Below are positions 12,829 through 64,000 of a DNA stretch of 64,000 bases, piece after piece. Numbering within the stretch: the stretch's first letter is position 1; each line of letters opens with the position of its first letter. This stretch comes from Nocardioides kongjuensis. GTDB lineage: Bacteria; Actinomycetota; Actinomycetes; Propionibacteriales; Nocardioidaceae. The notes under the pieces are model-generated. The model worked only from the letters and a program-made list of their open reading frames with translations, searched no databases and was not told where the DNA came from. The stretch spans positions 4,157,001-4,221,000 of the forward strand of contig NZ_JACCBF010000001.1 of NCBI RefSeq assembly GCF_013409625.1, given 5' to 3'. A program made the position numbers and the translations under genes.

Positions 12829-12836
12829 ACGATCGC

Positions 12837-12869: not shown

Positions 12870-12872
12870 CGC

Positions 12873-15143: not shown

Positions 15144-15177
15144 TGCACGTTCCCCTCCGGTCGGTGAGGATGGAGCC

Positions 15178-48403: not shown

Positions 48404-49811
48404 GACCTCCCGGGCGCTGGCCGACGTCCGGCACCTGCTCTGGTTCCGCCGCGCGACGGTACGACGCCGGCGGGCCGCCGCGTTCGCCCTCGCCGCGCTC
48501 GGCCTGGTCACCGTGGCCGCCGCGGTGCTGCCGCCGCTCCTCGTCGCGACCGACGAGCTCGACCGGTTCGTGAGGCCGGCCCTGGTCGCGGTCGTGCTGG
48601 TCGCCGTGACCGGTGCGATCGCCGGCGGGGGCGGTCGCGAGCTGCTCGCCCGGGACCCGGCCGCCGTGCACCCGATCAGCCCGGTGAGCGACCACCTCGG
48701 CGCGCTGCTGCTCGCCCCGCTCAGCGCGGGCTGGCTGATCCAGGCGTGGGGCCTACTGGGGCTGGCCTCCGCGGTCGCGGGACCCGGCGGGCCCCCGGTC
48801 GCCGTCGCCTGGCTGGTCGCGGCGACCGCGCTGGCGCAGGCTGTCGGCTGGGCCGGGGATTACCTCCGCCGGCGCGGGGTTCTCGCCTGGTTCGCGGCGC
48901 CGCTCGCCGGTCTCGGTGTCCTTCCGGCGCCGCTCGTCGCGGAGGCGATCGGTGACGGCCCGGCCGCGCAGTCGCTGGCCGCCTTGGCCCTGCTCGCGGC
49001 CACCGTGCCGCTGGTCGCCGCGGGTGCGGTCCTCGCCGTGGTGACCGCCCGCCTGGTGCCGCGCGACGAGGCGCGCCGCGAGACGGCCGACCACGCTCCG
49101 CGGTCGCTGCCGCGCTCCGACCTCGCCCTGCTGCGGCGTACCGACCGGGCGTCGGTGTGGCGCAGCGTCCCGTTGCGCCGGGGCACCTACCTGCTCGCCC
49201 TCGCCCCGGGTGCGGTGGCCCTCGCGGGCGGTCTCGCGTGGTCGAACCTGGTGCTGCTCCCGGGGCTGGTGGCCTCCGGCTGCGTGCTGCTGTTCGGCGT
49301 GAACCTGTGGTGCCTCGACGGTCGCGGGATGCTGTGGCGCGAGTCGTTGCCGGTCGCGCCGCGCACGGTGCTGCTCGCCCGGGCGCTCGTGCTGACCGAG
49401 GTGCTCGCCGGCGCCGGGACGGCGACGCTGCTGCTCGGTGCGCTCCGGGCCGGCCGGCCCACGACCGCCGAGCTGCTGGCCGTCGTCCTGGCCCTGCTCG
49501 TGGTCGTCGCCCAGTCCCTCTCGGCCGCGCTGCGTTGGTCGCTGGCCCACCCGTACGCCGTCGACCTCCGCTCTGCCCGCGCCACCCCCGCACCGCCGCT
49601 GGCGATGGTCGGCTACTCGTTGCGTCTCGCCGTCACCACGACGCTGTCGGGCCTGCTGCTCGCGGGGTTCGCGGGCGTCGGCCGAACCGACCTGCTTGCC
49701 CTCTCTGCGGTCGTCCTGCTCGCAGTCGCGGCTGTCCGGATCCGGCGCGCCGCCCGCCGCTGGTCGGACCCGGTCCGGCGAGCGGCGGTCGTCGCCGTCG
49801 TCGCGGCGTAG
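48378..49811 (+). CDS. ABC transporter membrane subunit
   Basis: 477 aa and highly hydrophobic: about 12 helices with long Ala/Leu/Val runs. The GTG at 48378 lies in the end of the ATPase gene. It forms the membrane half of the transporter. Similar actinobacterial proteins are unnamed (DUF6297-like); I make that match tentatively. The ATPase and permease face outwards as an exporter. Confidence 0.8.
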   Translation: MPTARSWPETSRALADVRHLLWFRRATVRRRRAAAFALAALGLVTVAAAVLPPLLVATDELDRFVRPALVAVVLVAVTGAIAGGGGRELLARDPAAVHPISPVSDHLGALLLAPLSAGWLIQAWGLLGLASAVAGPGGPPVAVAWLVAATALAQAVGWAGDYLRRRGVLAWFAAPLAGLGVLPAPLVAEAIGDGPAAQSLAALALLAATVPLVAAGAVLAVVTARLVPRDEARRETADHAPRSLPRSDLALLRRTDRASVWRSVPLRRGTYLLALAPGAVALAGGLAWSNLVLLPGLVASGCVLLFGVNLWCLDGRGMLWRESLPVAPRTVLLARALVLTEVLAGAGTATLLLGALRAGRPTTAELLAVVLALLVVVAQSLSAALRWSLAHPYAVDLRSARATPAPPLAMVGYSLRLAVTTTLSGLLLAGFAGVGRTDLLALSAVVLLAVAAVRIRRAARRWSDPVRRAAVVAVVAA

Positions 49812-49823: not shown

Positions 49824-50315
49824 TCATTCCTGGCGTCGCCGCTCACGGAAGGCGGCGACGGCATGCCGGTTTCCGCACGCCGTTGAACAGAACCGCCGTG
49901 AGCGGTTGCGGCTGGCGTCGAACACGATGCTGTCGCAGGTCGTGTCCGCGCAGTTGGTGAGTCGGTCCTGGTCACCGGCCGCGACGATCAGCAGCAGGGA
50001 CAGCGCGAACTGGCTGATCGCGTCCGAGGTGCGGCCCCTTCGCCGACTGGTCGCGTGCAGGTGCCAGGAGAGCATGTCGTGCCGGACCAAGGCGACCTGG
50101 GCGTCGTGCTCCGCGAGGAGGGCATTGGCCCTCCGGGTCAGATCCACCTCGGAGAGGCTCGCCAGCGCATCCTGCACTGCTGTCCGAAGGGCCGGCGCAT
50201 CCTCCGCCGTGAGGCCCGCCGGCCCGCCGGCGAGGATCCGACGACGGTCCGTCCGGGGATAGGCGAGCGCGAGTGCCGTCTGCAGGGTCCCGACAGAGCA
50301 GCGTGCCTCCCTCAT
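49824..50315 (-). CDS. CGNR zinc-finger protein (ABATE-type regulator)
   Basis: 163 aa. The N-terminal part is a helical ABATE-like domain; the C-terminus is a CGNR finger (NCADTTCDSIVFDASRNRSR, then RFCSTACGNRHAVAA) with four Cys for zinc. These are thought to be DNA-binding stress or catabolic regulators. It is divergent from the ABC importer operon and could co-control it. The ATG at 50315 is the only plausible start. Confidence 0.88.
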   Translation of the reverse strand: MREARCSVGTLQTALALAYPRTDRRRILAGGPAGLTAEDAPALRTAVQDALASLSEVDLTRRANALLAEHDAQVALVRHDMLSWHLHATSRRRGRTSDAISQFALSLLLIVAAGDQDRLTNCADTTCDSIVFDASRNRSRRFCSTACGNRHAVAAFRERRRQE

Positions 50316-50361
50316 CGGTCAGCACTCCTGGTCTCGGGCGAGGCACCTCATGAACGAGACA

Positions 50362-50404
50362 TTACAGAATGATCTCTTGACATGGAACCTGAAACGCATC
50401 TTAC
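50362..50404 (+). promoter_or_regulatory. Promoter motif of ABC operon, shared with 58941-58982
   Basis: TTACAGA (50362-50368), TTGACA (50377-50382), CTGAAAC (50389-50395) and CTTAC (50400-50404). The same words in the same order and spacing (within 1 bp) stand before the amidohydrolase operon. TTGACA looks like a -35 box; the outer words are probably a regulator site, most simply for the RpiR protein. Confidence 0.55.
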
Positions 50405-50436
50405 TTGTCTCCAACACCGACCACTTTGGAGATGTG

Positions 50437-51720
50437 ATGTCCATCAAGTCCCCGTCGGCCCGCGTAGTCGCGACCGTCACCGCCGCAGTGGCCGCCCTCT
50501 CACTCGCGGCCTGTTCGCTCCCGTCCTCGAGCAACGGGGGATCGACGAGCGATGGCTCGGTGAAGCTGGGTCTCCTGGCGCCGCTCACCGGCGCTTCCGC
50601 TGCCGACGGCAAGGCGATGCGGCAGGGCGCCGAGCTCGCGGTGAAGGAGCTCAACGCCGGCGGTGGGGTCAATGGCCATGAGATCAGCCTGGAGTCCGCC
50701 GACGTCAAGGATCTCAAGGCCGACGCCGTCGCTTCCGCAGTCTCGCGGCTGACCGCTGACCCCGAGGTCGCTGCGGTCATCACGGGCTACGCCAGCACGA
50801 CGAACTTCGAGATCGACCAGCTCGCCGAGGCGACCATGCCGTACCTGATCGGAGGCGGCAGTGCGCAGACCGCCGAGATCATCGAGAAGGACCCCGAGAA
50901 GTACCCGGGCATCTGGTCGACCGCACCGAGCTACGACGCCTACAAGACCGACCTGCCGAACCGGCTCGAGCAGTGGGACGCCGATGGCACCTTCCCGCTG
51001 CGCAACAGGACCGTCTACATCGTGTCGAGTGACAACCCCTACTCCAACGACATCGCCGGCGGCCTTGCCACGAACTTCGAGGCCGGGGGCTGGCAGGTCG
51101 AGGGGCCCGATGTCGTGCCCTTCGGAGAGGTCAACGACTGGACCCCGCAGATCTCCAAGATCCATGCTGCTGATCCGTCGGTGATCGTCAACCTCGACTA
51201 CCTGACGGCGAACGCGGTCAAGTTCTTGACCCAGTTCCGGGACAACCCCACCAACGCCCTCCTGTTCTCGCAGTACGCGCCCAGCGTGCCGGAGTACAAG
51301 AAGCTTGCGGGGGACGCGGCCGACGGGGTCATGTACAACCTCCCGGCAGGCGCGATCCTGTCCAGCAAGTACGCCCCGGCGCAGGACTTCTTGAAGGAGT
51401 TCCGGGACGCCTATGGCACCGACCCTGGCCTCTACGGAGTCATGAGCTACGAGCAGGTCATGCTCTGGGCCAAGGCTGTCGAGAGCAGCGGTGGCGATCC
51501 GCTCGACAAGGAGGCGGTCGGCGAGGCGATCGGCACCACGGTGATGTCCGGAACCGCGATGGGGACGATCAGGTTCGACCAGCAGACCCACCTCGCCGTC
51601 GCCGACGACGAGGACGGCATGCCGCTGCAGTTCTTCGAGATCCAGGACGGCCGTGACACGCTCCTCGGCCCTGCGCAGTGGGCCGACGGCGAGTTCCAGC
51701 AGCCCACCTGGTTCAAGTGA
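50437..51720 (+). CDS. Branched-chain amino acid-type ABC substrate-binding lipoprotein
   Basis: 427 aa. Lipoprotein signal with lipobox LSLAAC at about residues 22-27, then a type I periplasmic binding fold (VKLGLLAPLTGASAADGKAM, residues about 44-63). Members of this family bind amino acids, urea, amides or aromatics. I use the ATG at 50437 since it gives a correct signal peptide and has GGAG 5 bases before. First gene of the importer operon. Confidence 0.93.
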   Translation: MSIKSPSARVVATVTAAVAALSLAACSLPSSSNGGSTSDGSVKLGLLAPLTGASAADGKAMRQGAELAVKELNAGGGVNGHEISLESADVKDLKADAVASAVSRLTADPEVAAVITGYASTTNFEIDQLAEATMPYLIGGGSAQTAEIIEKDPEKYPGIWSTAPSYDAYKTDLPNRLEQWDADGTFPLRNRTVYIVSSDNPYSNDIAGGLATNFEAGGWQVEGPDVVPFGEVNDWTPQISKIHAADPSVIVNLDYLTANAVKFLTQFRDNPTNALLFSQYAPSVPEYKKLAGDAADGVMYNLPAGAILSSKYAPAQDFLKEFRDAYGTDPGLYGVMSYEQVMLWAKAVESSGGDPLDKEAVGEAIGTTVMSGTAMGTIRFDQQTHLAVADDEDGMPLQFFEIQDGRDTLLGPAQWADGEFQQPTWFK

Positions 51721-51730
51721 GGCACTCGCC

Positions 51731-52471
51731 GTGACCATGACCATGCATGACCGAGTGCTCCTGAGCGTTCGCGAGGTGAGCCGCTCGTTCGACAGCTACC
51801 AGGCAGTCCGCCAGGTCACCTTCGACGTCCACGAGGCCGAGGTGCTGGGGATCGCCGGCCCGAACGGCGCCGGCAAGAGCACGTTGTTCAATCTGCTGAG
51901 CGGAGTCCCGTTCAGCGCCAGCGGAGGGCAGATCGAGCTTGACGGCCGGCGCATCGAACGCTTGGCCGGCCACCGGATCTGCCGTCTCGGCCTCCGTCGC
52001 ACCTTCCAGGCGGATCAGGTCTTCCCCGAGCTCACCGTCTACGAGAACGCGCGCCTCGCGGCCGCGTACCTCCGGGGCGGTCGCGGGGTTCGCCGGGAGG
52101 CCATGAAGGTCCTCGAACGCACCGGCCTGCTGGCGCTCGCCGATGCCCGTGCCGGCGACATCAGCGTTCTCGCGAAGAAGAAGCTGATGATCGCGGGCGC
52201 GCTGGTGGGCGACGTCCAGGTGCTGTTGCTGGACGAACCGGCCGGCGGCCTCGATGCCCACGACCAGGACGAACTCGCGTCCTTGATCGAGACCCTCAGC
52301 TCGACCGGCCTGACCATCGTCGTCATCGAGCACGTCCTGAGCCTGCTGCGACGTGTCGCTGACCGGATGATCGTCATGGTCGCCGGTGAGGTTCTCGTCA
52401 CCGGGCGCCCCGAGGACGTCCTGGCTGATTCCCGCGTCGTCGAGGCCTATCTCGGAGAGGCAAGCCCATGA
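51731..52471 (+). CDS. ABC importer ATPase, LivG type
   Basis: 246 aa. Walker A GPNGAGKST; signature degenerate (ISVLAKKKLMIAGAL rather than LSGGQ); Walker B LLLDEPAGGLD; LivG-like loop FQADQVFPELTVYEN. The GTG at 51731 is 8 bases after GAGG; two in-frame ATGs follow at once. Pairs with the LivF-type ATPase. Confidence 0.92.
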   Translation: MTMTMHDRVLLSVREVSRSFDSYQAVRQVTFDVHEAEVLGIAGPNGAGKSTLFNLLSGVPFSASGGQIELDGRRIERLAGHRICRLGLRRTFQADQVFPELTVYENARLAAAYLRGGRGVRREAMKVLERTGLLALADARAGDISVLAKKKLMIAGALVGDVQVLLLDEPAGGLDAHDQDELASLIETLSSTGLTIVVIEHVLSLLRRVADRMIVMVAGEVLVTGRPEDVLADSRVVEAYLGEASP

Positions 52472-53241
52472 GAGCCGGTGCAGGCACTCTCACGATCGAC
52501 CGGCTCGCCGCCGGCTACGGGAGGCTCCAGGTCGTCAAGGGCATCTCGCTCGAGCTCGGCGCCGGCCGGGCGCTCGCTCTCCTCGGGCCCAACGGTCACG
52601 GGAAGACCACGCTCCTGCGCGCGATCACGGGCCTCGGGCCGATCACGTCGGGCACGGTCGAGCTCGACGGGGAGCGCATCGAGAAGCTCACGACTCCCGA
52701 GATCGTCGAACGCGGCCTGATGCACGTGCCGCAGGGGGACATGCTCTTCCCCCGGCTGACGGTGAACGAGAGCCTCACCCTGGCCGGCCGGCTCCGCCGG
52801 GCACGCGGGCAGCGTGCGACCAATCTCAGCCTCGTGCTGGATCTCTTCCCCCGCGTCGCGGAGCGACGTCACCAGCTCGTAGGAACGATGTCGGGCGGGG
52901 AGCGACAGATGCTCGCCATCGGCATGGGCATCATGGCGAACCCCAGCGTCCTCATCCTCGACGAGCCGACGCTCGGTCTCGCCCCGAAGGTCCGCCACGA
53001 GATCCTCACCAGACTGCTCGACGTCCGGCAGGCCGGACTCTCCCTGCTCGTCGCCGACGGCGACGTCGACTTCCTGTTCGGGCTCGCAGACGAGTGGCAC
53101 GTGATCGAGCTCGGGCGCATCGTCGGGAGCGGGACGACGGAGAACAGGCCGACACACGAACAGATGATGGCCATGTACGTCGGAGCGTCGAGCACTCCGT
53201 CCGGCGGCCCCGATACGACGACGGAGGTGTCGCATGTCTGA
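52468..53241 (+). CDS. ABC importer ATPase, LivF type
   Basis: 257 aa. Walker A GPNGHGKTT, signature MSGGERQMLAIGMGI, Walker B LILDEPTLGLAPKV. This is the LivF pattern. ATGA overlap with the previous gene and 8-bp overlap with the permease gene. It drives import together with the LivG-type subunit. Confidence 0.93.
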   Translation: MRAGAGTLTIDRLAAGYGRLQVVKGISLELGAGRALALLGPNGHGKTTLLRAITGLGPITSGTVELDGERIEKLTTPEIVERGLMHVPQGDMLFPRLTVNESLTLAGRLRRARGQRATNLSLVLDLFPRVAERRHQLVGTMSGGERQMLAIGMGIMANPSVLILDEPTLGLAPKVRHEILTRLLDVRQAGLSLLVADGDVDFLFGLADEWHVIELGRIVGSGTTENRPTHEQMMAMYVGASSTPSGGPDTTTEVSHV

Positions 53242-54103
53242 GGGTCTCGTCTCGATCCTGGCGTCGGCTTTGCTTCTCGGCTCGATGTACGCACTCCTCA
53301 CCGCGGGAATGTCGCTCATCTGGTCCACGCTCCAGGTCTTCAACTACGCCCACGGCGCGACCCTGGTCATCGGTGGGTACCTGATCTGGAGCCTCACCGA
53401 GCATGGCGTTCCGGTCCTGCTCGCGACGGTCCTCGCAACGATCGCCATGGCCGGGGCGGGTGCGCTCGTGGAGCTGGTCGCCGTACGGCCGCTCGCATCC
53501 CGCCCGGACGGGACCCTGATGGTCATGGTGGCCACGCTCGCGCTGGCGAGTGCGTCCGAAGGGATCGCGCAGATCATGTGGGGCCCTCAGAACAAGCAGC
53601 TGCCCGCCCTCACGACCGCGACCTTCGACGTCGCCGGTGTCGCCGTCCGGTGGACCACGGTCGTGGCCCTCCTCATGGCCGTCGGCCTGGTCGGCACGCT
53701 GATCGCCGTCGTCAACCGGACCGGATGGGGGGCGGGCATTCGGGCGGTCGCCCAGAACCGCGACATGGCGATGCTCCTCGGGATCAGGCCCGGTCGCATC
53801 TACATGTCGGTCTTCGCCGTGGCAGCCGGGCTCGCGACGGCCGGTGCCCTCGTCTTCGCGACCACCACGACACTCACCCCGACGAAGGGAAGCGGCCCCC
53901 TGCTGACCGCGTTCGTCGTGCTGGTCTTCGGAGGCACCGCGTCCTTGGTCGGAACCCTGGTCGGCGCCTACGTGATCGGCCTCCTCGAGGCGTCGACCAG
54001 CTACTGGATCGGCCTGCAGTGGAGCCCGGTCGCCGTGTTCGCCCTGCTCGTGGTCGTCATGCTGGTACGTCCCGAGGGACTCGTGAGGAGGCGCGCGTCA
54101 TGA
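53234..54103 (+). CDS. ABC importer permease, LivH type
   Basis: 289 aa, about eight helices, starting with the LivH pattern LLLGSMYALLTAGMSLIWST and then NYAHGATLVIGGYL. One of two membrane subunits. Overlaps with both neighbours show tight coupling. Confidence 0.93.
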   Translation: MSEGLVSILASALLLGSMYALLTAGMSLIWSTLQVFNYAHGATLVIGGYLIWSLTEHGVPVLLATVLATIAMAGAGALVELVAVRPLASRPDGTLMVMVATLALASASEGIAQIMWGPQNKQLPALTTATFDVAGVAVRWTTVVALLMAVGLVGTLIAVVNRTGWGAGIRAVAQNRDMAMLLGIRPGRIYMSVFAVAAGLATAGALVFATTTTLTPTKGSGPLLTAFVVLVFGGTASLVGTLVGAYVIGLLEASTSYWIGLQWSPVAVFALLVVVMLVRPEGLVRRRAS

Positions 54104-55128
54104 CCAACCTCCGACTCCTCCTGAGGTGGGGCGGCTATGTCGCCCTCGCCCTCGCCGTGCCGTACGTCGTCCTCGCGCCGACCAGCCGGCTGGTCGTCTC
54201 CACCGCCCTCATCTACGCACTGCTCGCCGCGAGCTGGAACCTCACCCTGGGGTTCGGCGGGATCTTCAACTTCGCCCACGTCGGCATGTTCGGGGTCGGG
54301 GGCTACGCGATGGCCATCGCGTCCCTCAAGTGGGAGTGGACCACCGTGCCGGCCGTCGGGTTCGCCGTCCTGTGCGGGGCGGCCATCGGTGCCCTGGCCT
54401 ATCTGCCCGTGGTCAGGATGCGAGGGATCTACATCGCGCTGATCACCTTCGTGCTCGTCCAGATCTGCTACCACCTGGTTCTCGCCCTGCCCGACCTCAC
54501 CGGAGGATCGAACGGGCTGCCCGGAGTGCCGGCGATGACGCTGGTCGGCCACAACCTGGCGATGAACGACGGTCTGGGCTACCTGTGGTTGCTCGGGCTC
54601 TCCGTCGCAGTGATGCTGATCATCCTCGAGCTGATCATGTCGAGCCCGTTCGGGCAGAGCCTCGTCGCACTGCGCGACAACGAGCAGCTGGCCTGCAGCC
54701 GCGGCGTCAACCGCATCCGGCAGCAGCTCATCGCGTTCGTCATCTCCGGCGCGATGGCAGGCTTCACGGGTGCGATGTACGTCAGCTACTACCGGGTCGC
54801 CGACGTGAGCCTGTTCAGCTTCACCTTCGTCACCCTCGGCCTGAGCATGATCTTCCTCGGCGGGACCAAGCAGACCTGGGGCCCGGTCGTCGGGGCGGTC
54901 GTCGTGACCCTGGTCGACAACCAGCTCGCGGCCCTCGACGCATGGCGGCCGGTCATCTTCGCCCTGGCCACGATAGCCGTCCTCGTGTTCGCGCCCGGCG
55001 GGATCAGCGCGACCCTGGTGCGCGTCACCGAGGCTGCTCGTCGCCTGAGCAAGACCGCCGTCGCACCCGGTCGGCGGCAGTCCACCAACGAGACCAGCAC
55101 GTCGCGAAGGAGTATCGAGAATGTCTGA
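54100..55128 (+). CDS. ABC importer permease, LivM type
   Basis: 342 aa, about nine to ten helices, with FGGIFNFAHVGMFGVGGYAM typical of LivM and RDNEQLACSRGVNRIRQQLI in the cytoplasmic loop. Starts at ATGA 54100. Its end overlaps the M20 hydrolase gene by 8 bp. Confidence 0.93.
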   Translation: MTNLRLLLRWGGYVALALAVPYVVLAPTSRLVVSTALIYALLAASWNLTLGFGGIFNFAHVGMFGVGGYAMAIASLKWEWTTVPAVGFAVLCGAAIGALAYLPVVRMRGIYIALITFVLVQICYHLVLALPDLTGGSNGLPGVPAMTLVGHNLAMNDGLGYLWLLGLSVAVMLIILELIMSSPFGQSLVALRDNEQLACSRGVNRIRQQLIAFVISGAMAGFTGAMYVSYYRVADVSLFSFTFVTLGLSMIFLGGTKQTWGPVVGAVVVTLVDNQLAALDAWRPVIFALATIAVLVFAPGGISATLVRVTEAARRLSKTAVAPGRRQSTNETSTSRRSIENV

Positions 55129-56476
55129 CGACCAGCTCAAGAAGGCGGTGCTCGACGCCGTCGACGCGCTTACGCCCAGGCTCGTCCAGTCGGTTTCGGA
55201 CGCGGTGAGGATCCCGTCGGTGAACCCCAAGTACCCCGGCCAGGACTACGACCGGCTGGTCGGCGCCGAGTCCGACGTCAGCGCGTTGGTCGCCGATCTC
55301 TACCGTGAGGCCGGCGCCGAGACCGAGATGGTGACCGCCGAACGGCGGCGCGACAATGCCTGCGGCCGGATCCGGGGTACGGGTGGTGGACGGACTCTCG
55401 TCCTCAACGGGCACGTCGACGTCGTCCCCGCTCTCCAGCCCGACCTGTGGACGGGGCCCACGTTCTCGGGACAGATCACCGACGACGCCGTTCTCGGGCG
55501 TGGAGCGACGGACATGAAGGGGGGCACCGTCGCGGCTGCCTACGCTGCCTTGGCCCTGGCCAAGGCAGACGTCAGGCTCCGGGGTGACCTGATCCTGCAG
55601 GCCGTCGTCGGCGAGGAGGTCGGTGACCACGAGGCGGGGACCAGCGCCGTGCTGGATGCCGGCTACGGCGGGGACGCCGTCCTCGTGTGCGAGCCCACCA
55701 ACGCGACCGACGGACCACCCCATCTGAGCACCAGCGCTCCGGGTCTGCTCTGGTTCTCCCTGACCCTCAAGGGCAGGACCGCTCACGTCGGGTGGCGGGG
55801 GCGGACCATTCATCCGACCCTCGACGGAGCAGCGCTCGGCGTCAACACCATCGACAAGTACTGGGTCATCTATCAGGCCCTGCGCGATCTGGAGAACATG
55901 TGGGCGGAGCGGGATCGCCATCCCCTGTTCGCCCCGGGACACTTCTGCATCATGCCGGGGGTCCTGAACGCGAACCCGAAGGGAATCGACGTCCCCTTCT
56001 TCCTGGCCGACACGCTGACGGTCGACTACTGCGTCCTGCATCACCCGGATCGCAGCAATGGCGAGGTACGCGCGGAGATCGAGGAAACGGTTCGTCAGGC
56101 ATGTCGCCGCGACGTGTGGCTGCGCGAGAACGAACCGGAGTTCGACTGGAAGCTCGACTGGCCGGCGTACACGACACCATCGGGCCACGGCCTCGAGGCA
56201 TCCGTCTCCTCCGCGCACGCCGAGATCCTCGGGGGCGTGGAAGTCGGAGCGGGACCGACGAAGTCAGGAATGTTCGGGGTCTGCGACATCACCTGGACCG
56301 CGGCCCAGGGAATCGATGGCGTGATCTACGGACCCGGCGTGGGGAAGACCGCTCACGCCGAGGACGAGTACGTGCCGATCCACCAGCTCGTCACCGCGGT
56401 GAAGACCTATGCGCTCACCGCACTCGACTACTGCGGGGTCGCCGAATCCGCCGAATCCGCCGACGCTCCGCAGTAG
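55121..56476 (+). CDS. M20-family deacylase/peptidase (ArgE/DapE-like)
   Basis: 451 aa, cytoplasmic. Metal and catalytic residues: LNGHVDVVPAL (His and Asp), GRGATDMKGG (bridging Asp) and VVGEEVGDHEAG (Glu pair). The last His lies in GVGKTAHAEDEYV. Removes an acyl or peptidyl group from an amino compound. Since it is coupled to the ABC importer, it probably acts on the imported substrate. Confidence 0.92.
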   Translation: MSDDQLKKAVLDAVDALTPRLVQSVSDAVRIPSVNPKYPGQDYDRLVGAESDVSALVADLYREAGAETEMVTAERRRDNACGRIRGTGGGRTLVLNGHVDVVPALQPDLWTGPTFSGQITDDAVLGRGATDMKGGTVAAAYAALALAKADVRLRGDLILQAVVGEEVGDHEAGTSAVLDAGYGGDAVLVCEPTNATDGPPHLSTSAPGLLWFSLTLKGRTAHVGWRGRTIHPTLDGAALGVNTIDKYWVIYQALRDLENMWAERDRHPLFAPGHFCIMPGVLNANPKGIDVPFFLADTLTVDYCVLHHPDRSNGEVRAEIEETVRQACRRDVWLRENEPEFDWKLDWPAYTTPSGHGLEASVSSAHAEILGGVEVGAGPTKSGMFGVCDITWTAAQGIDGVIYGPGVGKTAHAEDEYVPIHQLVTAVKTYALTALDYCGVAESAESADAPQ

Positions 56477-56528
56477 CCGGAGCCGGGCAGCGACACGCCC
56501 CGGTCCGCCAGTCCCTCCACCGCTCCAG

Positions 56529-56563
56529 CGTTCCGTCCGCGACGACTCGTCGCGGACGGAACG
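56529..56563. terminator. Perfect 17-bp-arm hairpin
   Basis: CGTTCCGTCCGCGACGA and its reverse complement face each other around one C. The hairpin lies 27 bp before the permease start and ends the ABC/M20 operon, or attenuates the permease. A GGGGGCG run follows, no T run. Confidence 0.65.
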
Positions 56564-56589
56564 GGGGCGCCCGAAACAGGAGCATCGCC

Positions 56590-58035
56590 ATGACGAAGCC
56601 GTCTGCCGCCGGGAACGACAACGCCGTGCGATCCGGGCTCCACCGCAACCTGTCCGTGTGGGCCGCGCTGGGGCTCTCCGTGGCGCTCCTCGGACCAAGC
56701 ATGGCCGTGAACATCAACCCCCAAGCGCCCGCCGGCCTCGTCGGATCGGCAGTCCCGCTCGTCTTCGTGTTCGCGATGGTCGGGGTCCTCGTCGTCGCGC
56801 ACTCCTTCGCGCGGCTCTCCCAGTACATCTCGAGCGCCGGCTCCGTCTACGGGTTCATCGGCGCCACGGTCGGCCCGCGAACCGGGTTCGTGGGAGGTTG
56901 GCTCCTGCTCGGAACCTACATCGCCTTCGCGGCATGCACGGCCGCCGGAGCCGCGCTGTTCCTCGGAGGCCTCGTCGACTCGCTCATCGATCCGGTCCTT
57001 CCCTGGGAGGTCGTCGGCGGGGTCGTCGTGACCGCGGTGGGCTTCCTCGCGACTCGTCCGGCGAAGGCAGCGACCACGGTCCTTCTGGTCGTCGAGCTCG
57101 TCACCATCGCCCTGATGCTCGTCGTCGCAGTCGTCGTCCTGGTCAGGGTCAGCGGCGGAGGCGGGCCGGTCGGCGGGTCCAGCTTCTCTCAGCTCCTCAC
57201 GCTTCCCGACGGCGTCGGGGGCTCTGCGCTCTTCGCCGCGATGACGTTCGGGTTCCTCTCGTTCGCGGGTTTCGAAGCGGCCTCGACGCTCGGCGAGGAG
57301 ACCGAGGACCCGCGCCGCTCGATTCCGATCGCGTTGGTCGGGTCGGTGCTCCTTGCGGGAGCCTTCTTCGTGACCGTCACCAGCGCGGAGGTGCTCGGCT
57401 TCGGAACCAGCGCAGCCGGCACCGAGGCGCTCGTCTCGTCGTCGTCACTGGTCGGCGACCTGGCGCGCGACTACATCGGTGGCCCCATCGGAGACCTGGT
57501 CACGCTCGGCGCGGGTCTCAGCGCCTTCGGCTCGTGCCTCGCCTGCACGGTCGGCGCATCACGGCTGCTCCTCGCGATGGGCCGTGACGGCTTCATCAGC
57601 ACCAGGCTCGGTGACACGGACAGCAACGGGGTACCCCGACCTTCCGTGCTGGCCACCGTCGCTGTGCTCCTGGTGCTGGCCGTCCTGATGCGCACGTTCG
57701 CCACCGACGACGTGGTCGACATCTTCTTCTGGACCGCGACCGTCGGCTCGCTGTTCCTCCTGGTCGCGTACCTGTTGTCGCTGGTCGGTGCCGCGCGCTT
57801 CATCGTCACCAGTCGAGCGCACACCATCCCCGCGATCGAAGGTCTCCTTCCCTTCGGGGGCATCGCGATGATCGGCTACGTGCTGTACCGGAACGTCTGG
57901 CCGATCCCGGCCCGCCCCTACGACCTCTTCCCCTACATCGTCGCGGTCTGGGCGTTCGTCGGCCTCATGGTCGCGTCCGCCACTCCGGGCCTTGCCCGTC
58001 GAATCGGAGAACGTCTCGTGCTCGAGGACCACTGA
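56590..58035 (+). CDS. APC-superfamily amino acid/amine permease
   Basis: 481 aa, 12 to 14 helices; begins MTKPSAAGNDNAVRSGLHRN and has GFEAASTLGEETEDPRRSIP after helix 6. APC carriers import amino acids, polyamines or amines. The substrate fits the amine-handling genes downstream. AGGAG precedes the ATG. Tail to tail with RpiR. Confidence 0.92.
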   Translation: MTKPSAAGNDNAVRSGLHRNLSVWAALGLSVALLGPSMAVNINPQAPAGLVGSAVPLVFVFAMVGVLVVAHSFARLSQYISSAGSVYGFIGATVGPRTGFVGGWLLLGTYIAFAACTAAGAALFLGGLVDSLIDPVLPWEVVGGVVVTAVGFLATRPAKAATTVLLVVELVTIALMLVVAVVVLVRVSGGGGPVGGSSFSQLLTLPDGVGGSALFAAMTFGFLSFAGFEAASTLGEETEDPRRSIPIALVGSVLLAGAFFVTVTSAEVLGFGTSAAGTEALVSSSSLVGDLARDYIGGPIGDLVTLGAGLSAFGSCLACTVGASRLLLAMGRDGFISTRLGDTDSNGVPRPSVLATVAVLLVLAVLMRTFATDDVVDIFFWTATVGSLFLLVAYLLSLVGAARFIVTSRAHTIPAIEGLLPFGGIAMIGYVLYRNVWPIPARPYDLFPYIVAVWAFVGLMVASATPGLARRIGERLVLEDH

Positions 58036-58051
58036 TGCAAGGAGCCGCACC

Positions 58052-58897
58052 CTAGTGGTCGCCCTCCAGGTCCTGGAGACGCTTGAGGCCGGTCTCGCCG
58101 AGTCTCTCGGTCACGCCGGTGATGACGCTCTCGGTGAGGGCCATCGCCGCGACGAGGGAGTCGAAGGGCGAGGCGGACTCGACTCGGCACGGGAGGACGA
58201 CCTTCGCCGACTGCGCGGCCGGGGACAGCCAGTTGTCGGTCATCAGGCAGACGGTCGCGCCGCGCTCGGCCGCGGCCTCGGCGAAGGCGGCGAGACTCTC
58301 GTCGTAGCGCCGGTAGTCGAAGATCACCACCACGCTCGAGCTCGTGAGGTCCGCAAGGGTGGTCCTGTGCCCCATGGCGTCGGGGAGGGTCATGTTGACC
58401 CGTGGCCGCAGGAGCCGGAGATGCAGGACCAGGTACTCGGCCAGGAGCCGGCTGAAGCGACCGCCGACGACCCAGACCTCGGCGGCGCTCTTGCTCAACA
58501 GCTCGACCACGCGGTCGAACTCGGACTGGGGGACCTCGTCGTACGTCAGCTCGATCATGTCGGCGAAAGCGTGCTGGGTGCGCGTCAGTGCGCCCGACGT
58601 CGGCTCCATCGCCTTGGTCGAGAACTGGCGCACGGGCGAGCCCATCTCGGCATTCACCTCGTGGATGAGCGCCCGTTGGAACGCCGGGTAGCCGGCATAG
58701 CCCAGCTTCGCGACGAACCGGACGACGGTGGGAGCGCTGACGCCGGCCGCTTCGGCCAGGGAGGCCACCGTGTTCAGTCCGGCGGCCGGGTACTGCGCCA
58801 GCAGGGAGCGCGCGACCTTCTTCTCGCTGTTCGAGAGGTCGTCCATCGAGTCCATCAGCGACTTGCGCACGGACCTGTAGTCATCCACCTGAATCAC
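58052..58897 (-). CDS. MurR/RpiR-family transcriptional regulator
   Basis: 281 aa. The N-terminal RpiR helix-turn-helix (LSNSEKKVARSLLAQYPAAG, then VASLAEAAGVSAPTVVRFVA) and a C-terminal SIS domain (VWVVGGRFSRLLAEYLVLHL) that usually senses phosphosugars. I favour the GTG at 58897 with AAGG nearby; an ATG at 58939 would run into the operator. It is divergent from the amidohydrolase operon and is the best candidate regulator of the island. In such catabolic loci the SIS domain may bind an amine or amide intermediate. Confidence 0.9.
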   Translation of the reverse strand: MIQVDDYRSVRKSLMDSMDDLSNSEKKVARSLLAQYPAAGLNTVASLAEAAGVSAPTVVRFVAKLGYAGYPAFQRALIHEVNAEMGSPVRQFSTKAMEPTSGALTRTQHAFADMIELTYDEVPQSEFDRVVELLSKSAAEVWVVGGRFSRLLAEYLVLHLRLLRPRVNMTLPDAMGHRTTLADLTSSSVVVIFDYRRYDESLAAFAEAAAERGATVCLMTDNWLSPAAQSAKVVLPCRVESASPFDSLVAAMALTESVITGVTERLGETGLKRLQDLEGDH

Positions 58898-58940
58898 GCC
58901 GCCTTCGGGAGTTCTTGCCGGGGGCCTTGCGAACCACATG

Positions 58941-58982
58941 TTACAGAGTTACGCTTCTGACAAGAACTGAAACAAACATTAC
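58941..58982 (+). promoter_or_regulatory. Promoter motif of amidohydrolase operon
   Basis: TTACAGA (58941-58947), CTGACA (58957-58962), CTGAAAC (58967-58973) and ATTAC (58978-58982), as at 50362-50404. The motif is between the RpiR gene and the operon. Confidence 0.55.
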
Positions 58983-59028
58983 AGTCCGGCCCGAGGTCCT
59001 CTTCGGCCATCCAACGCAAGGTAGCGCA

Positions 59029-60159
59029 GTGACCATTCAGCTCGCCGAGTACGTGAGCCACCTCGGGCTCATCGATCACCACTGTCACGGGGTGACGTCC
59101 GCCAACCTCTCCTCGGGGCAGTTCGAGGCGCTCGCCACGGAGTCGTCCTGGCGCTCTCCCTTCGGCGGGTCGAACTTCGACACCCCCTTCGGCGTCGCTG
59201 TGCGTGCGCTCTGCGCGCCGGAGCTCGGACTCGAGGCCCACTGCACGGGCGAGCAGTACATGGAGCGTCGCATCGCCCTCGGCCCGGATGCGGTCAACCA
59301 GACGCTCCTGCGCGGGACCGGCATCGAGCGCTACGTCGTGGAGACCGGGGTGGGCGCGCACATGCTCGGACCGAAGGAGGTCGCCGATGCCGCCGGTGCC
59401 GAGTTCGGTGAGATCGACCGGCTCGAGGCTCTCGCCGAAGATGAGCTTGCCCTGGCCGAGAACGGCGAGGACTTCGTCGCTCGCGTGGTGGAGCGGATCG
59501 GCGCCAGCGCGGCGCGATCACTCGGCTTCAAGTCCATCGTCGCGTACCGCTGCGGGCTCGACTTCGACCCCGACCAGCCCACCCGCGACGAGGTGAGGGA
59601 CGCAGCCGACCGCCTCCTGCGTGCCAGGACGTCCGAGGAGCCGGTCCGGCTCGAGGATCCGGTCGTCATCCGGTTCCTGATCTGGGAGGCGGTGCGCCAC
59701 GGGTGTCCTCTCCAGTTCCATGTCGGCTACGGCGACTCGGACATCGACCTGCACCGGTGCGACCCGAGCAAGATGACCGAGTTCATCCGCAGGACGGTCG
59801 ACACCGGAGCCAGCATCATGCTGCTGCACTGCTACCCGTTCCAGCGGGAGGCGGCCTTCCTCGCCCAGGTCTACCCGCACGTCTACCTCGACACCGGTGC
59901 GGCCGTGAACTACACCGGGTTCGGCTCCCACGCGATCATCCGCGAGTCCCTGGAGCTGGCCCCGTTCAACAAGGTGATGTTCTCCACGGACGCGTACGGG
60001 CTGCCCGAGCTCTACTACTGCGGGAGTCACCTGTGGCGACGCGGCGTCGCAAGGGTGTTCGGCGACTGGGTGGCCGACGACGAGATGAGCCTCGACGACG
60101 CAAAGCGATATCTGGACATGATCGCCGTCGGCAACGCCGCGAAGGTGTACGGCAGGTGA
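59029..60159 (+). CDS. Amidohydrolase, FluG N-domain-like
   Basis: 376 aa TIM-barrel hydrolase. The metal HxH motif is LIDHHCHGV near the N-terminus; further His are in QFHVGYGDSD and LLHCYPFQRE, and the last Asp is in FSTDAYGLPE. It matches the N-terminal half of FluG-type proteins, in which an amidohydrolase is fused to a glutamine synthetase; here the synthetase is a separate gene two genes on. The GTG has AAGG 7 bases before. It probably cuts a gamma-glutamyl amide or related bond. Confidence 0.88.
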   Translation: MTIQLAEYVSHLGLIDHHCHGVTSANLSSGQFEALATESSWRSPFGGSNFDTPFGVAVRALCAPELGLEAHCTGEQYMERRIALGPDAVNQTLLRGTGIERYVVETGVGAHMLGPKEVADAAGAEFGEIDRLEALAEDELALAENGEDFVARVVERIGASAARSLGFKSIVAYRCGLDFDPDQPTRDEVRDAADRLLRARTSEEPVRLEDPVVIRFLIWEAVRHGCPLQFHVGYGDSDIDLHRCDPSKMTEFIRRTVDTGASIMLLHCYPFQREAAFLAQVYPHVYLDTGAAVNYTGFGSHAIIRESLELAPFNKVMFSTDAYGLPELYYCGSHLWRRGVARVFGDWVADDEMSLDDAKRYLDMIAVGNAAKVYGR

Positions 60160-61373
60160 TCACGCCAGTGGCGGCCGGTCGCCGTCCCTTCGACCACGAG
60201 ATCCGGGCGGGTCTCGGCGATGCCCAAGCCCTACGCCGAGAGCTTCACCGGACCCCGCGGACCGGAGGGGACGAGGAGCCGGTCGCCCGGCTGCTCGCGA
60301 CCCGGCTCGGACGCGCCGAGGCGCCGAGCATCGCGGGTGGACGGATCCTTCGCTTCGGGCCGGCGGACGGTCCTGCCGTCGCGCTGCGCGCGGAGCTCGA
60401 CGCACTCCCGATCGATGAGGAGACCGGCGTGCGCTGGGCCTCTCGCAACGGAGCCATGCACGCGTGCGGGCACGACGTACACATGGCGGCTCTCGCCCTG
60501 GCCGTCGGCTGCCTGCGCAAGACGATGCCCGACGTACCGGTGGTCGCCCTTCTCCAGCCTCGCGAGGAGACCTATCCGTGCGGCGCGCCCGATCTCCTGG
60601 GCTCGGACGAGTGGGCGGGCGCGAACATCGGCGCCGTCGTCGGGGGACACCTCCAGCCCCGACTCCCGGCCGGCGTCGTCTCGGCCGCACCGGGCGCGGT
60701 GAACGCGGCGTCCGACGAGTTCGAGCTGACCGTCCACGGAGTCGGTGGGCACGCCGCCTATCCGCACACGGTCGAGGACCCGGTGGTCGCGGCAGCGGCG
60801 ATCGTCGGCGCGATGCAGCACATCGTGTCTCGGCGGACGGACCCGATGCAGCCGGCGGTGGTCAGCATCGGCTCCGTTCGAGGTGGTCAGGCGGCCAACA
60901 TCATCCCCAACGACGTTCGGATCCTCGGCACTGTCCGCACCTTCGACTCTGCGCAGCGCGAGGACGTGAAGTCGCACCTCGAGGCGATCGGTCGCAACGT
61001 GGCCGCTGGCTACGGATGCACGACGACGCTGCGCATCGTCTCCGGAGAGCCGGTGCTGACCAACTCGCCGGACATCGTGCATCGTCTGCGACCCAACATC
61101 CGCGAGCAGGGGATGAGCCTCGGAGAGGACCTCAGGTCGTGCGGTGCCGATGACTTCGCCTACTACAGCGACGCCGTCGCTTCCGTGATGGTCTTCGTGG
61201 GGACCGGCGACGGAACGTCGAGCTCCCCCGGCCTGCACAGCCCCAGGTTCCTGCCGCCCGAGAGTGCCGTCGAAGACGTCGCCCGGGTGCTTCTCGCCGG
61301 ATTCTCGGCGGCGAACGACCACCTGAGAGCAGACATGAGTTCGAGATCACTTTCCGAAGGGAGTGTCACATGA
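60156..61373 (+). CDS. M20-family amidohydrolase (hippurate hydrolase-like)
   Basis: 405 aa. Metal residues: HACGHDVHMAAL; QPREETYPCGAPDLL; and GVGGHAAYPH of the dimerisation domain. The pattern is that of N-acyl-amino acid/hippurate hydrolases (M20D). GTGA overlap with the amidohydrolase and ATGA overlap with the synthetase show tight coupling. Confidence 0.92.
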   Translation: MITPVAAGRRPFDHEIRAGLGDAQALRRELHRTPRTGGDEEPVARLLATRLGRAEAPSIAGGRILRFGPADGPAVALRAELDALPIDEETGVRWASRNGAMHACGHDVHMAALALAVGCLRKTMPDVPVVALLQPREETYPCGAPDLLGSDEWAGANIGAVVGGHLQPRLPAGVVSAAPGAVNAASDEFELTVHGVGGHAAYPHTVEDPVVAAAAIVGAMQHIVSRRTDPMQPAVVSIGSVRGGQAANIIPNDVRILGTVRTFDSAQREDVKSHLEAIGRNVAAGYGCTTTLRIVSGEPVLTNSPDIVHRLRPNIREQGMSLGEDLRSCGADDFAYYSDAVASVMVFVGTGDGTSSSPGLHSPRFLPPESAVEDVARVLLAGFSAANDHLRADMSSRSLSEGSVT

Positions 61374-62698
61374 GCGACCACCAGGCCACCGGTGACGGAC
61401 AGAGCCTCCTGCTCAACCTCGTCGACAACTCAGGGGTGACTCGCGCGAAGCTGCTTCCGGCGTCGCGCATCGCCGCGGTGAGCGAGAGGGGAGTCGGCCT
61501 GTCGACCGCCTTCGCATACATGTGCGTCGACGACCACCTCGCTCCCATCCCAGGTGGAGTCGCGGTCGGGGACATGCGACTCGTACCTGCGGCTGATGCT
61601 CGACGGATGCTCGCCGCAGGTCTCGACTGGGCCCCGGTCGATCAGCTCGACCAGGAGACGCTCGACCCGGTGCCGACCTGCGCCCGATCGGCGGCGAAGC
61701 GTCTCGTCGCCGCCGCGAAGGACGCCGGGTACGTGTACCGGATGGCGTTCGAGTTCGAGTTCACGCTCTACAAGGAGAACGCCGACGGCTCACTCGAACT
61801 CGCCCACACCGGACCAGGCTACGGCGTGGGTCCCTTCCTCCGCCTGGAGCCGATGATCCGCGACCTCGAACAGAGCCTGATCATCGCGGGGATCGAGGTG
61901 GAGCAGATCCACCCCGAGTACGGCAACGGGCAGATCGAGGTCTCCATAGCGCCGGCGGACCCGGTTCGAGCGGCCGACAACGCCGTCCTGTGTCGCGTCA
62001 TCGTCGCCCGGACCGCACTCGCGCACGGCTATCGAGCCTCGTTCGCGCCGATCACCAGCGTCGAGGGCATCGGCAACGGGGCCCACCTCCATGCGTCCGC
62101 CTTCAAGGACGGTCGCAACGTCTTCAGCGGCGGCGACCGGGAGTGCGGCATGACCGATGACGGTCTCGCCATGGTGTCGCGCCTCGCCCAGCTCCTCCCG
62201 GACACCATCGGTCTCTACGCTCCGAGCGTCCTCAGCAACGAGCGACTTCGGCCCGGCATGTGGAGTGGTGCCTGGGTGTGCTGGGGTCACGAGAACCGCG
62301 AGGCCGGAGTCCGGTTCGTGCAGGGAACCGGGGGTCACGGCCAGTCATCGGCGAATTGCGAGGTCAAGGTGATCGACCCGGCGGCCAACCCCTACCTCGT
62401 GGTCGCCGCCGTCGTGGCGATCACGCAGGACGCCCTTGCCCATCCGTACGACATCCTGCCCGAGATCCATGTCGATCCGGCCGTCATGACCGACGACGAG
62501 CGAGCCCGGAACAAGGTCGGCAGGCTCCCGGGCAGTCTCGCCGACGCGCTCGACCTTCTCGAGAAGAACCAGACTCTGCGCGCCGCGCTGGGAGCCGAGC
62601 TGCTCGACTCGTTCGTTGCCGTGCACAGGCACGAGGACGAGGAACACGGCTCGAAGGACCTGGAAGCACGCATCGACCTCCTCCGCTGGAAGTACTGA
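61370..62698 (+). CDS. Glutamine synthetase-like gamma-glutamyl ligase
   Basis: 442 aa. GS folds: FEFEFTLYKENADGSLEL (catalytic Glu), GNGAHLHASAFKDG (metal/ATP His), and NCEVKVIDPAANPYLVVAAV. Shorter motif set than housekeeping GlnA and no adenylylation loop seen. It belongs with the PuuA/GlnA3/FluG-type ligases, which couple glutamate to an amine. Sits between an M20 hydrolase and an amine oxidase. Confidence 0.92.
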   Translation: MSDHQATGDGQSLLLNLVDNSGVTRAKLLPASRIAAVSERGVGLSTAFAYMCVDDHLAPIPGGVAVGDMRLVPAADARRMLAAGLDWAPVDQLDQETLDPVPTCARSAAKRLVAAAKDAGYVYRMAFEFEFTLYKENADGSLELAHTGPGYGVGPFLRLEPMIRDLEQSLIIAGIEVEQIHPEYGNGQIEVSIAPADPVRAADNAVLCRVIVARTALAHGYRASFAPITSVEGIGNGAHLHASAFKDGRNVFSGGDRECGMTDDGLAMVSRLAQLLPDTIGLYAPSVLSNERLRPGMWSGAWVCWGHENREAGVRFVQGTGGHGQSSANCEVKVIDPAANPYLVVAAVVAITQDALAHPYDILPEIHVDPAVMTDDERARNKVGRLPGSLADALDLLEKNQTLRAALGAELLDSFVAVHRHEDEEHGSKDLEARIDLLRWKY

Positions 62699-62699
62699 C

Positions 62700-64000
62700 A
62701 TGACGAACCTGACCAAGCACCGCTCGTTCTGGCTCCAAGAGGCTGGCGTCGACGACGTCTGCCCACCGCTGACCGGGAACAGGAAGACCGACGTCGCCAT
62801 CGTCGGCGGGGGCTACGTGGGTCTGTGGACGGCGCTTCGCATCAAGGAGCTCGACCCCGCCGTCGACGTCACCATCGTCGAAGCCGACGTGTGCGGCGGG
62901 GGCGCCAGTGGTCGCAATGGCGGCTTCGTCCTGTCCTGGTGGCCCAAGTTCGCGTCCTTGACCGCGTTGTGCGGAGAGCAGGAGGCGCTCCGCCTGGCAC
63001 TCGCCTCGGAGGACGCGATCACCGAGATCGGTGAGTTCTGCGCGGCACACTCTCCCGAGGCCGAGTTCCGCCGCTCCGGATGGCTGTGGACCGCCACGTC
63101 CCCCGCACACGACAGGTCCTGGGACGACGTCGTCACGCTGGCCGACCGGGCCAAGGAAGGGACGTTCGAGCATCTCGCGCCCCGAGAGGTCGCTCGACTG
63201 GCCGGCAGCCCGACCCATCTCGCCGGAGTGCTGGAGCACTCGGCTGCGATCGTCCACCCCGGCCACCTGGTCCGCGCCCTGCGCCGGCGAGCACTCGAGC
63301 TGGGTGTCAACATCTACGAGAACACAAAGGTCAAGCGCCTGAACCGTCGAGGCGCTCCCCGCCTGGCCACCGCGGCCGGCACGATCTGCGCCGACCGTGT
63401 CGTCGTCGCCACCAACGCCTGGGCTGCCGGGCTGAAGGAGCTGCACACCCGCCTCTTCGTGATCTCGAGCGACATCGTCGCGACCGAGGAGATCCCGAAT
63501 GAGCTCGATGAGATCGGATGGCGCGAGGGTCCGGCCATCACCGACTCGCAGACGCTCGTCTGCTACTACCGGACGACGGACTCCGGACGTGTCGTCTTCG
63601 GCAAGGGCGGCTGGTCGATCGGGATCGGTGGCCACATGACCAAGGCGATGGAACGCAGCGCCGGTCGTGCGGAGATGGTCACGCGCGACTTCCAGCGCTA
63701 CTACCCGATGTTGCGTCAGGCCAGGATCACGCACGACTGGGCCGGTCCGATCGACCGCACCCACAACAGCCTCCCCATCATCGACTGGCTCAACCGGGAG
63801 AAGACGATCGCGGTCGGGGTGGGCTGGTCCGGGAACGGTGTCGGTCCCAGCGTCGTCGGAGGCAAGATGCTCGCCTCCATGGTCCTGGGCCGGCAGGACG
63901 AATGGAGCTCCGCAGGGCTGGTGTCCGCACGTGCGAAGCACTTTCCACCGGACCCGGTCCGCTACGTCGGTGCCCACCTGGTACGCGAGGCGATCGTCCG
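62700..64000 (+). CDS. FAD-dependent amine oxidoreductase (PuuB/DAO type), partial
   Basis: 433 residues up to the right edge; the stop is beyond the window. FAD dinucleotide fold at VAIVGGGYVGLWTALRI; DAO-type second FAD contact near ATNAWAAGLKE and GVGWSGNGVGPSV at the end. Resembles gamma-glutamyl-putrescine oxidase and similar amine oxidases. It starts 1 bp after the ligase stop, so it is read with it and probably oxidises the gamma-glutamylated amine. Confidence 0.93.
   Translation, partial: MTNLTKHRSFWLQEAGVDDVCPPLTGNRKTDVAIVGGGYVGLWTALRIKELDPAVDVTIVEADVCGGGASGRNGGFVLSWWPKFASLTALCGEQEALRLALASEDAITEIGEFCAAHSPEAEFRRSGWLWTATSPAHDRSWDDVVTLADRAKEGTFEHLAPREVARLAGSPTHLAGVLEHSAAIVHPGHLVRALRRRALELGVNIYENTKVKRLNRRGAPRLATAAGTICADRVVVATNAWAAGLKELHTRLFVISSDIVATEEIPNELDEIGWREGPAITDSQTLVCYYRTTDSGRVVFGKGGWSIGIGGHMTKAMERSAGRAEMVTRDFQRYYPMLRQARITHDWAGPIDRTHNSLPIIDWLNREKTIAVGVGWSGNGVGPSVVGGKMLASMVLGRQDEWSSAGLVSARAKHFPPDPVRYVGAHLVREAIV

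Follow-up and report, generated by a model that had tools for sequence, protein, structure and literature searches.

A probably acquired and co-regulated catabolic island in Nocardioides kongjuensis that pairs a FluG-type amidohydrolase with a glutamine-synthetase-like ligase

The window analysed here is a stretch of 64,000 nucleotides from the actinobacterium Nocardioides kongjuensis (NZ_JACCBF010000001.1, positions 4,157,001 to 4,221,000 of the forward strand), and the 13 genes that start at 49824 and run slightly past its right end form a real, single and probably co-regulated catabolic island. From sequence evidence we tentatively read this block, which measures about 14.4 kb between a putative permease gene and the native rocD (ornithine aminotransferase) gene, as one acquired RpiR regulon in which uptake, amide hydrolysis, glutamylation and amine oxidation would lead into the ornithine/pyrroline-5-carboxylate (P5C)/glutamate branch, a proposal that we hold to be close to an even call. 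An earlier sequence-only reading had described the block as a complete amine/amide catabolic island resembling a split FluG pathway, and all genes that it named are present and intact according to their coordinates and to Pfam and NCBIfam scans.

Gene content and layout of the island

The island genes, with the short names used below, are as follows.

49824-50315, minus strand: CGNR zinc-finger regulator, at the left end of the island (PF11706, 54.5 bits, cut-off 24)
50437-51720, plus strand: Liv-type substrate-binding protein (SBP) with a lipoprotein-like start (PF13458, 153 bits)
51737-52471, plus strand: LivG-type ATPase (PF00005, PF12399)
52468-53241, plus strand: LivF-type ATPase (PF00005)
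53234-54103, plus strand: LivH-type permease (PF02653)
54100-55128, plus strand: LivM-type permease (PF02653)
55121-56476, plus strand: M20a, deacylase of the ArgE/DapE family (PF01546; TIGR01910, 218.7 bits, just above the cut-off of 217.6)
56590-58035, plus strand: APC amino acid permease (PF00324, 124 bits)
58052-58939, minus strand: RpiR regulator with HTH_6 and SIS domains (PF01418, PF01380)
59029-60159, plus strand: AHY, Amidohydro_2 hydrolase of FluG-N/2QPX type (PF04909)
60156-61373, plus strand: M20b, amidohydrolase/aminoacylase of M20D type with a GTG start (TIGR01891, 229.8 bits, cut-off 153.75)
61370-62698, plus strand: GS, predicted glutamine-synthetase-like gamma-glutamyl ligase (PF00120, 237.6 bits)
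62700-64094, past the window end at 64000, plus strand: FAD, amine oxidoreductase of the DAO family (PF01266, 201.7 bits)

The CGNR gene is divergent from the SBP gene. AHY, M20b, GS and FAD are on the same strand and look like one operon, because a 4-bp overlap joins AHY to M20b and another joins M20b to GS, with a gap of 1 bp between GS and FAD. FluG has both domains in one polypeptide, whereas here amidohydrolase and ligase are separate genes with M20b between them, coupled through these overlaps as the sequence-only reading had proposed. To the right of position 64000, FAD stops at 64094 and is followed by what is left of a permease-gene 3' end, then by rocD. PuuC and PuuD, not seen in the window by the sequence-only reading, were likewise not found among the island proteins or the 9-10 right-flank proteins scanned with Pfam, a search that did not extend to the rest of the genome.

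A perfect inverted repeat with 15-bp arms is located at 56531-56561, between M20a and the APC gene, and might serve as a terminator or attenuator setting the APC gene apart.

Borders, insertion and rarity

The island is flanked by an imperfect direct repeat of 56 bp.

49752-49807, plus strand: left copy, in the 3' end of the putative ABC-permease gene
64147-64202 (L005:7147-7202), beyond the window and just before rocD: right copy, 49 of 56 positions identical to the left copy

The right copy ends like the permease-gene 3' ends of three relatives (GTTGTGGCGGCCTGA, with one change in G034), whereas the left copy differs from these relatives in its recoded end codons and in its stop codon. As the right copy is native-like and the left copy recoded, it is probable that a single block of about 14.4 kb was acquired horizontally as one unit, which rebuilt the end of the permease gene on insertion. 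When the whole genome was searched with the left copy the right copy was the one other strong match (72.5 bits), and the remaining 44 matches listed reached at most 42.8 bits. An empty site is seen in the three relatives of the genus whose rocD is closest (G139, G034, and G083; 92-95%), i.e., the putative permease gene is followed by rocD 21 bp on and the island is absent. Genomic islands are recognized by direct repeats at their flanks and by relatives with an empty site, and this locus has both. The gene carrying the left repeat (48186-49811) comes after an ABC ATPase gene and seems to encode the matching membrane component, so that it is a putative permease by position; the two stretches of it that were tried gave no Pfam match.

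A match to the AHY family was present in 18 of the 147 genus genomes, its own included, and no relative with more than 45% identity to AHY was found in the other 146. FAD was found in two of 391 genomes of the order, its own and one at 45% (G278; limit 1e-110), and in two of 394 genomes of the class, its own and G779 at 73% (limit 1e-100). No AHY was found in the 20 kb read around the 45% FAD of G278.

A shared predicted operator

The two halves of the island look like one RpiR regulon with a shared predicted operator at the target promoters, because the four best operator sites of the window, counted together with its 13-kb right flank, all lie in the island's two divergent promoters (next site 8.6). 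The sites and their position weight matrix (PWM) scores are as follows.

58965-58984, minus strand: predicted RpiR operator 1, RpiR/AHY promoter (PWM 24.8, best site)
50348-50367, minus strand: predicted RpiR operator, CGNR/SBP promoter (PWM 16.5, second best)
58927-58946, minus strand: predicted RpiR operator 2 (PWM 16.3, third best)
50389-50408, plus strand: weaker second predicted RpiR operator, CGNR/SBP promoter (PWM 10.3, fourth best)

The motif, a palindrome of approximately TGWAAY-N4-RTTWCA with 46 sites, was learned from the best site per region in 63 intergenic regions of the 35 loci in which RpiR and AHY both occur; the training set was kept free of the window, of the Paenarthrobacter aurescens TC1 locus (L058) and of any rocD, P5C dehydrogenase (P5CDH) or FAD promoter. 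The real score was reached by none of 5000 region shuffles for the RpiR/AHY promoter and by 13 of 5000 for the CGNR/SBP promoter, while whole-stretch block shuffling, done 100 times, gave a best score of at least 16.5 in four cases and of at least 16.3 in five. An exact TGWAAYN4RTTWCA occurs once in the 5.67-Mb genome, at RpiR/AHY. In the held-out TC1 locus the scores were 27.8 at SBP/AHY, 24.0 upstream of RpiR and 25.6 upstream of an Orn/Lys/Arg (OKR) decarboxylase gene, and in Pseudonocardia kujensis (L060) sites scoring 20.6 and 14.9 precede FAD. On leaving out one locus at a time, sites of at least 14 were found in 33 of the 63 target intergenic regions and in 6 of 156 others, and the best site of the locus lay in a target intergenic region in 22 of the 35 loci compared to 0.88 expected by area; in these statistics the relatives are not independent and only six genus relatives were dropped together. 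RpiR probably represses the whole island from the two divergent promoters until an inducer appears, as judged from the placement of the predicted sites.

Exact matches to the pattern beyond the cluster sites were found once in TC1, once in P. kujensis and three times in a metagenome-assembled Mycolicibacterium genome. A quick look at open reading frames revealed no clear new regulon member at these five sites, the one in TC1 having no reading frame that passed the filter. In L136-L139, the four loci of the genus that lack AHY, no site reached 12.

The ligase, the hydrolases and the oxidase

GS was examined in an alignment of 60 sequences with E. coli GlnA and PuuA, its own paralogues and relatives, and its best PDB match is 4hpp. 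The D50 loop is absent and E327 is replaced by W, i.e., the acidic residues of the ammonium site are gone, while the metal ligands and R321/R339/R344 are kept; Y179 aligns to G with a Y adjacent, and this site is unsure. The roles of these sites, and that of R359, follow the literature on glutamine synthetases. Because the acidic ammonium-site residues are missing, as in the ligase of FluG, amine glutamylation is likely and glutamine synthesis unlikely, so that GS is likely a gamma-glutamyl ligase, in line with the GS-like ligase of the sequence-only reading, and a true glutamine synthetase was rejected. Against the model of gamma-glutamylputrescine synthetase (NF045547) GS scored 268.1 bits with a cut-off of 650, and its identity to E. 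coli PuuA is 26%.

The assignment of AHY to the FluG N-domain type is borne out by the PDB search, in which 2qpx (E = 1.6e-36) was the sole match at E<=1. Residues H18, H20, K168, Y173, H231, H267, and D321 are invariant in 20 homologues, and AHY thereby shares with FluG and 2QPX the Tyr and the ligand set of the binuclear metal centre (H, H, Lys, H, H, D). The available part of PMC6478659 gives 2QPX as the template for the FluG N-domain together with the list of metal-ligand residues. A structure model built with 20 homologue sequences (mean predicted local distance difference test score 89.8) has eight strands alternating with helices, which is what a TIM barrel should show.

The best PDB match of M20b is YxeP, followed by an indole-acetic-acid-amino-acid hydrolase, and the fourth is an N-acyl-glutamine aminoacylase. 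In the hydrolase slot near GS-AHY, M20b is found in Actinobacteria and an N-formylglutamate amidohydrolase, which precedes GS-AHY, in Allomeiothermus, while Deinococcus aetherius has an acetamidase/formamidase beyond an APC gene. A protein of the N-formylglutamate-amidohydrolase type is the proposed gamma-glutamyl hydrolase of the ethanolamine pathway (PMC9397018, in the text available). As the slot varies and this type has that proposed role, we infer by analogy that M20b is the first-choice candidate for the gamma-glutamyl hydrolase, with AHY acting earlier, which departs from the proposal made for SCO6961. The GS-AHY pairs of Deinococcus and Allomeiothermus are on plasmids (L166, L167), beside acetamidase and APC genes or an N-formylglutamate amidohydrolase gene.

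FAD is of DAO type by the PF01266 and NCBIfam scans, in line with its first description as a FAD amine oxidase. Its best NCBIfam model is TIGR03329 (460.6 bits, below the cut-off of 632.8), and it belongs to the same Pfam family as PuuB with 26% identity over 419 aa. Gene swapping between clusters suggests that FAD does the job of the class-III aminotransferase of sister clusters.

The recurring gene set in relatives

The 80 named loci were selected by AHY alignment as the best 80 of 401 relatives. By tblastn, matches within 5 kb of AHY were found for the GS family in 60 of these loci, for APC in 41, for M20b in 37 (in 27 on the same strand directly downstream), for RpiR in 32 and for the class-III aminotransferase in 16, but for LivH in only four and M20a in three. 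With eight GS-domain stretches in the 5.67-Mb genome of N. kongjuensis we estimate that a random gene would be that near one in about 2% of cases, and the clustering of the gene set is far from chance. The same nine-gene order, a search for which the sequence-only reading had suggested, was not seen in the 80 loci, 47 of which were long enough to show order. Conserved gene order was rejected: the set recurs while its order varies among loci.

Except for CGNR, all parts are present in P. kujensis, in shuffled order and together with a glutamate dehydrogenase gene. The order in Nocardioides soli is AHY-M20b-GS-FAD-P5CDH, in TC1 the Liv genes and SBP are divergent from AHY-M20b-GS-M20a, which are followed by RpiR, and the row in G779 (L153) is RpiR, AHY, M20b, aminotransferase, FAD. 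The CGNR regulator was without match in the named and genus loci searched (tblastn, E 1e-8, 35% coverage). When the 120 listed matches each for AHY and FAD were compared, 11 exact contig sizes of at least 10 kb were common to both (53 AHY and 50 FAD sizes), which suggests linkage of AHY and FAD and was verified on the contig for P. kujensis only. Mirror trees gave correlations of AHY with M20b of r = 0.88, with APC of 0.60, and with GS and RpiR of 0.53 each, values to which shared species history contributes and which are weak evidence.

In six genus relatives (L140 at 12454-16462, L142, L144, and L146-L148) GS-AHY-M20b adjoins a homologue of the pre-mycofactocin synthase MftD and an MftG-like GMC oxidoreductase. 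The MftD homologue is above the TIGR03966 cut-off in L140, the locus scanned, and a mycofactocin link of these sets is possible. Flavoenzymes of FadH/OYE type flank the cluster at L057:4880-6997 and L059:6987-9113, their nearest model being mycofactocin OYE_2 with scores below the cut-off, and no FAD match was found at these two loci.

A tentative pathway

In the reading proposed here an amide or an amine-containing amino-acid derivative would enter the cell through the Liv ABC importer and through the APC permease, and M20a, M20b, and AHY, whose families are established, would cleave the amide bonds of the substrate and later of a gamma-glutamyl intermediate. GS, to judge from its active-site residues, would join glutamate to the freed amine in an ATP-dependent manner. 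FAD would then oxidise the amine to a semialdehyde, in place of the class-III aminotransferase of the sister clusters. Enzymes encoded outside the island would take the semialdehyde into the ornithine/P5C/glutamate branch; this step is suggested by the occurrence of P5CDH, rocD, glutamate dehydrogenase and OKR decarboxylase in sister clusters or regulons.

In G134, G145, G086, G102, G014, and G144 an RpiR 58-60% like that of the window is encoded beside a P5CDH gene divergent from rocD, and in these six genus relatives the operator is found at rocD/P5CDH (weaker in L147, 14.7) and at the GS-AHY-M20b promoter. N. soli has an operonic P5CDH gene 2 bp after FAD (741.5 bits, cut-off 613.6) and a second copy elsewhere (779 bits). 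In TC1 a gene for a flavin amine oxidase comes after the OKR decarboxylase gene that the operator precedes. rocD/P5CDH and OKR decarboxylase/amine oxidase are alternative routes out of ornithine. Because sister operators or operons are at rocD/P5CDH, FAD-P5CDH and the OKR decarboxylase, the sequences suggest ornithine or glutamate semialdehyde as the end product, and we lean towards an ornithine-type product at odds somewhat below even. It is less likely still, yet tempting to consider, that the clusters represent a new RpiR-controlled family of pathways in Actinobacteria for degradation of an ornithine-yielding amide via gamma-glutamylated intermediates, in which AHY and M20b would be constant and deamination interchangeable between FAD, class-III aminotransferase, or decarboxylase and amine oxidase.

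Several observations weigh against the island and pathway as read here. No integrase or transposase domain was found by Pfam in the 13 island proteins, a scan that left open reading frames below 150 aa outside, which bears on the mode of insertion. The best operator score is -2.2 at M20a/APC and -4.1 at FAD/rocD, i.e., there is none at the rocD that follows the island, which may therefore be its neighbour by chance. Four of nine genomes (N. soli, G134, and the genomes of L111 and L124) lack the exact palindrome but have weaker sites; a site of at least 14 is present in no more than 33 of the 63 target regions, the best site lies outside the named targets in 13 of the 35 loci, and no site of at least 12 was found in L153, from the sole other FAD genome of the class sample. 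In GS, R359 is replaced by K, as in its five nearest clusters and one own paralogue, and the donor could be other than glutamate. The link to ornithine comes from sister clusters with differing downstream gene sets and not from the island, and housekeeping P5CDH regions are without an operator site (best 8.1 in G000 and 5.3 in N. soli), which speaks against an ornithine product.

Other explanations

The gene block could be viewed as two unrelated neighbouring modules, with the Liv genes and M20a for scavenging of peptides or N-acyl amino acids and GS-AHY-M20b-FAD serving a separate purpose, as would fit the few sister loci with M20a or LivH near AHY. This is very unlikely, as both halves are inside the same island borders, both promoters have an operator, and in L058 and L060 the halves occur together with the same operator at SBP/AHY and before M20a. 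Two unrelated halves were rejected on account of the common borders and operators, and the coupling put forward in the sequence-only reading is upheld by these and by the co-occurrence of the halves in L058 and L060; that they are expressed independently, which was to have refuted it, is argued against by the sequence evidence. The enzymes themselves allow for other substrates. In the alignment GS shares the W in place of E327 with 4hpp, which we take to be PA5508, and a ligase of this type could tag an aromatic or bulky monoamine from which M20b would cleave the glutamyl group later. Bulky amines are favoured by PA5508 according to the available part of PMC6478659, but the island proteins include neither a ring dioxygenase nor a monooxygenase, and the sister clusters indicate ornithine/P5C enzymes, which makes aromatic-amine degradation quite improbable. 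Degradation of aminophosphonate or N-methyl-aminophosphonate by a PbfD-type oxidase comes to mind as TIGR03329 is the best model for FAD. It is extremely improbable and was rejected, since the score is under the cut-off and no gene of PhnW, PhnX, PhnY or PhnA type is among the island proteins, the rest of the genome not having been searched for phosphonate genes.

Gamma-glutamylation of polyamines or diamines is unlikely, though the likeliest of these alternatives. GS would act on putrescine or cadaverine, FAD would be PuuB-like, and AHY or M20b would replace PuuD, as proposed for glnA3-SCO6961. The order of a ligase followed by a DAO oxidase agrees with this, as does the OKR decarboxylase gene with its operators that, together with a flavin amine oxidase gene, is located beside the TC1 cluster; moreover glnA3 and SCO6961, the latter a predicted hydrolase, are likely co-transcribed and polyamine-induced (PMC5403932, available part). 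Yet GS and FAD have only 26% identity to PuuA and PuuB, GS falls far below its cut-off (268 against 650 bits), the island is without an aldehyde dehydrogenase, the importer is of Liv type and M20a would be unexplained. An acquired RpiR regulon leading into the ornithine/P5C/glutamate branch is the reading that we retain.

Relation to known systems

The pathway of E. coli with PuuA and PuuB likewise combines a ligase with a FAD oxidase of the DAO family, and the sequence-only reading had seen it mirrored in the gene order; a close Puu pathway is not supported, given the 26% identities and the lack of PuuC and PuuD in the island and scanned flank. Plant NodGS is presumably another FluG-like amidohydrolase-ligase system. 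Fungal FluG has the same pair of a 2QPX-type amidohydrolase and a gamma-glutamyl ligase with the same metal ligands, but here the genes are separate, M20b is between them and the operon is apparently catabolic. In Streptomyces coelicolor the GS-like ligase gene glnA3 (SCO6962) adjoins the gene for an amidohydrolase-2 protein (SCO6961, followed by SCO6960), likely co-transcribed and assigned to amine catabolism (PMC5403932, available part), and ligase and amidohydrolase are in one operon also here, with 4-bp overlaps and M20b between. The two are likened by description; the S. coelicolor substrates are polyamines, and M20b, FAD, RpiR, Liv, and M20a are not mentioned beside glnA3 in the available part of that article. 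Bacterial GS-amidohydrolase gene neighbours had also been noted before (PMC6478659, available part). As the GS-AHY pairing is known in Streptomyces, the "split FluG" of the sequence-only reading is not new.

The ethanolamine pathway of S. coelicolor (GlnA4, SCO1611, 1612, 1615) has gamma-glutamylation, oxidation and hydrolysis by an N-formylglutamate-amidohydrolase-like protein as predicted steps, but its dehydrogenases are of other families and AHY is not named in the available text (PMC9397018). The PbfC/PbfD group, which comprises PF01266 amine oxidoreductases, oxidises N-methyl 2-aminoethylphosphonate, and some members oxidise the plain compound and so replace a pyridoxal-phosphate-dependent aminotransferase (PMC10590968, available part); they differ in that the island has no phosphonate genes and FAD is under the TIGR03329 cut-off. 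No published description of the pair combined with M20b, FAD, Liv and M20a, an RpiR operator and a mobile form was found in the open-licence literature. What is known is thus the ligase-amidohydrolase pair in amine catabolism, and what appears to be new is its combination with M20b, FAD, Liv and M20a and the RpiR operator, along with the mobile form.

The FluG-type pair spans bacteria, fungi and plants, and FluG, a developmental regulator, acts on a substrate that is still called unknown (PMC6478659, available part). As the island is a compact and mobile form of it, equipped with a predicted operator and a rare oxidase, the substrate question can be tested in a soil bacterium: a compound that lifts RpiR off the predicted operator would reveal the substrate class, and the operator is a simple handle for locating more members of the pathway. 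If true, the RpiR-controlled pathway family would for the first time connect the FluG module with a defined metabolic substrate.

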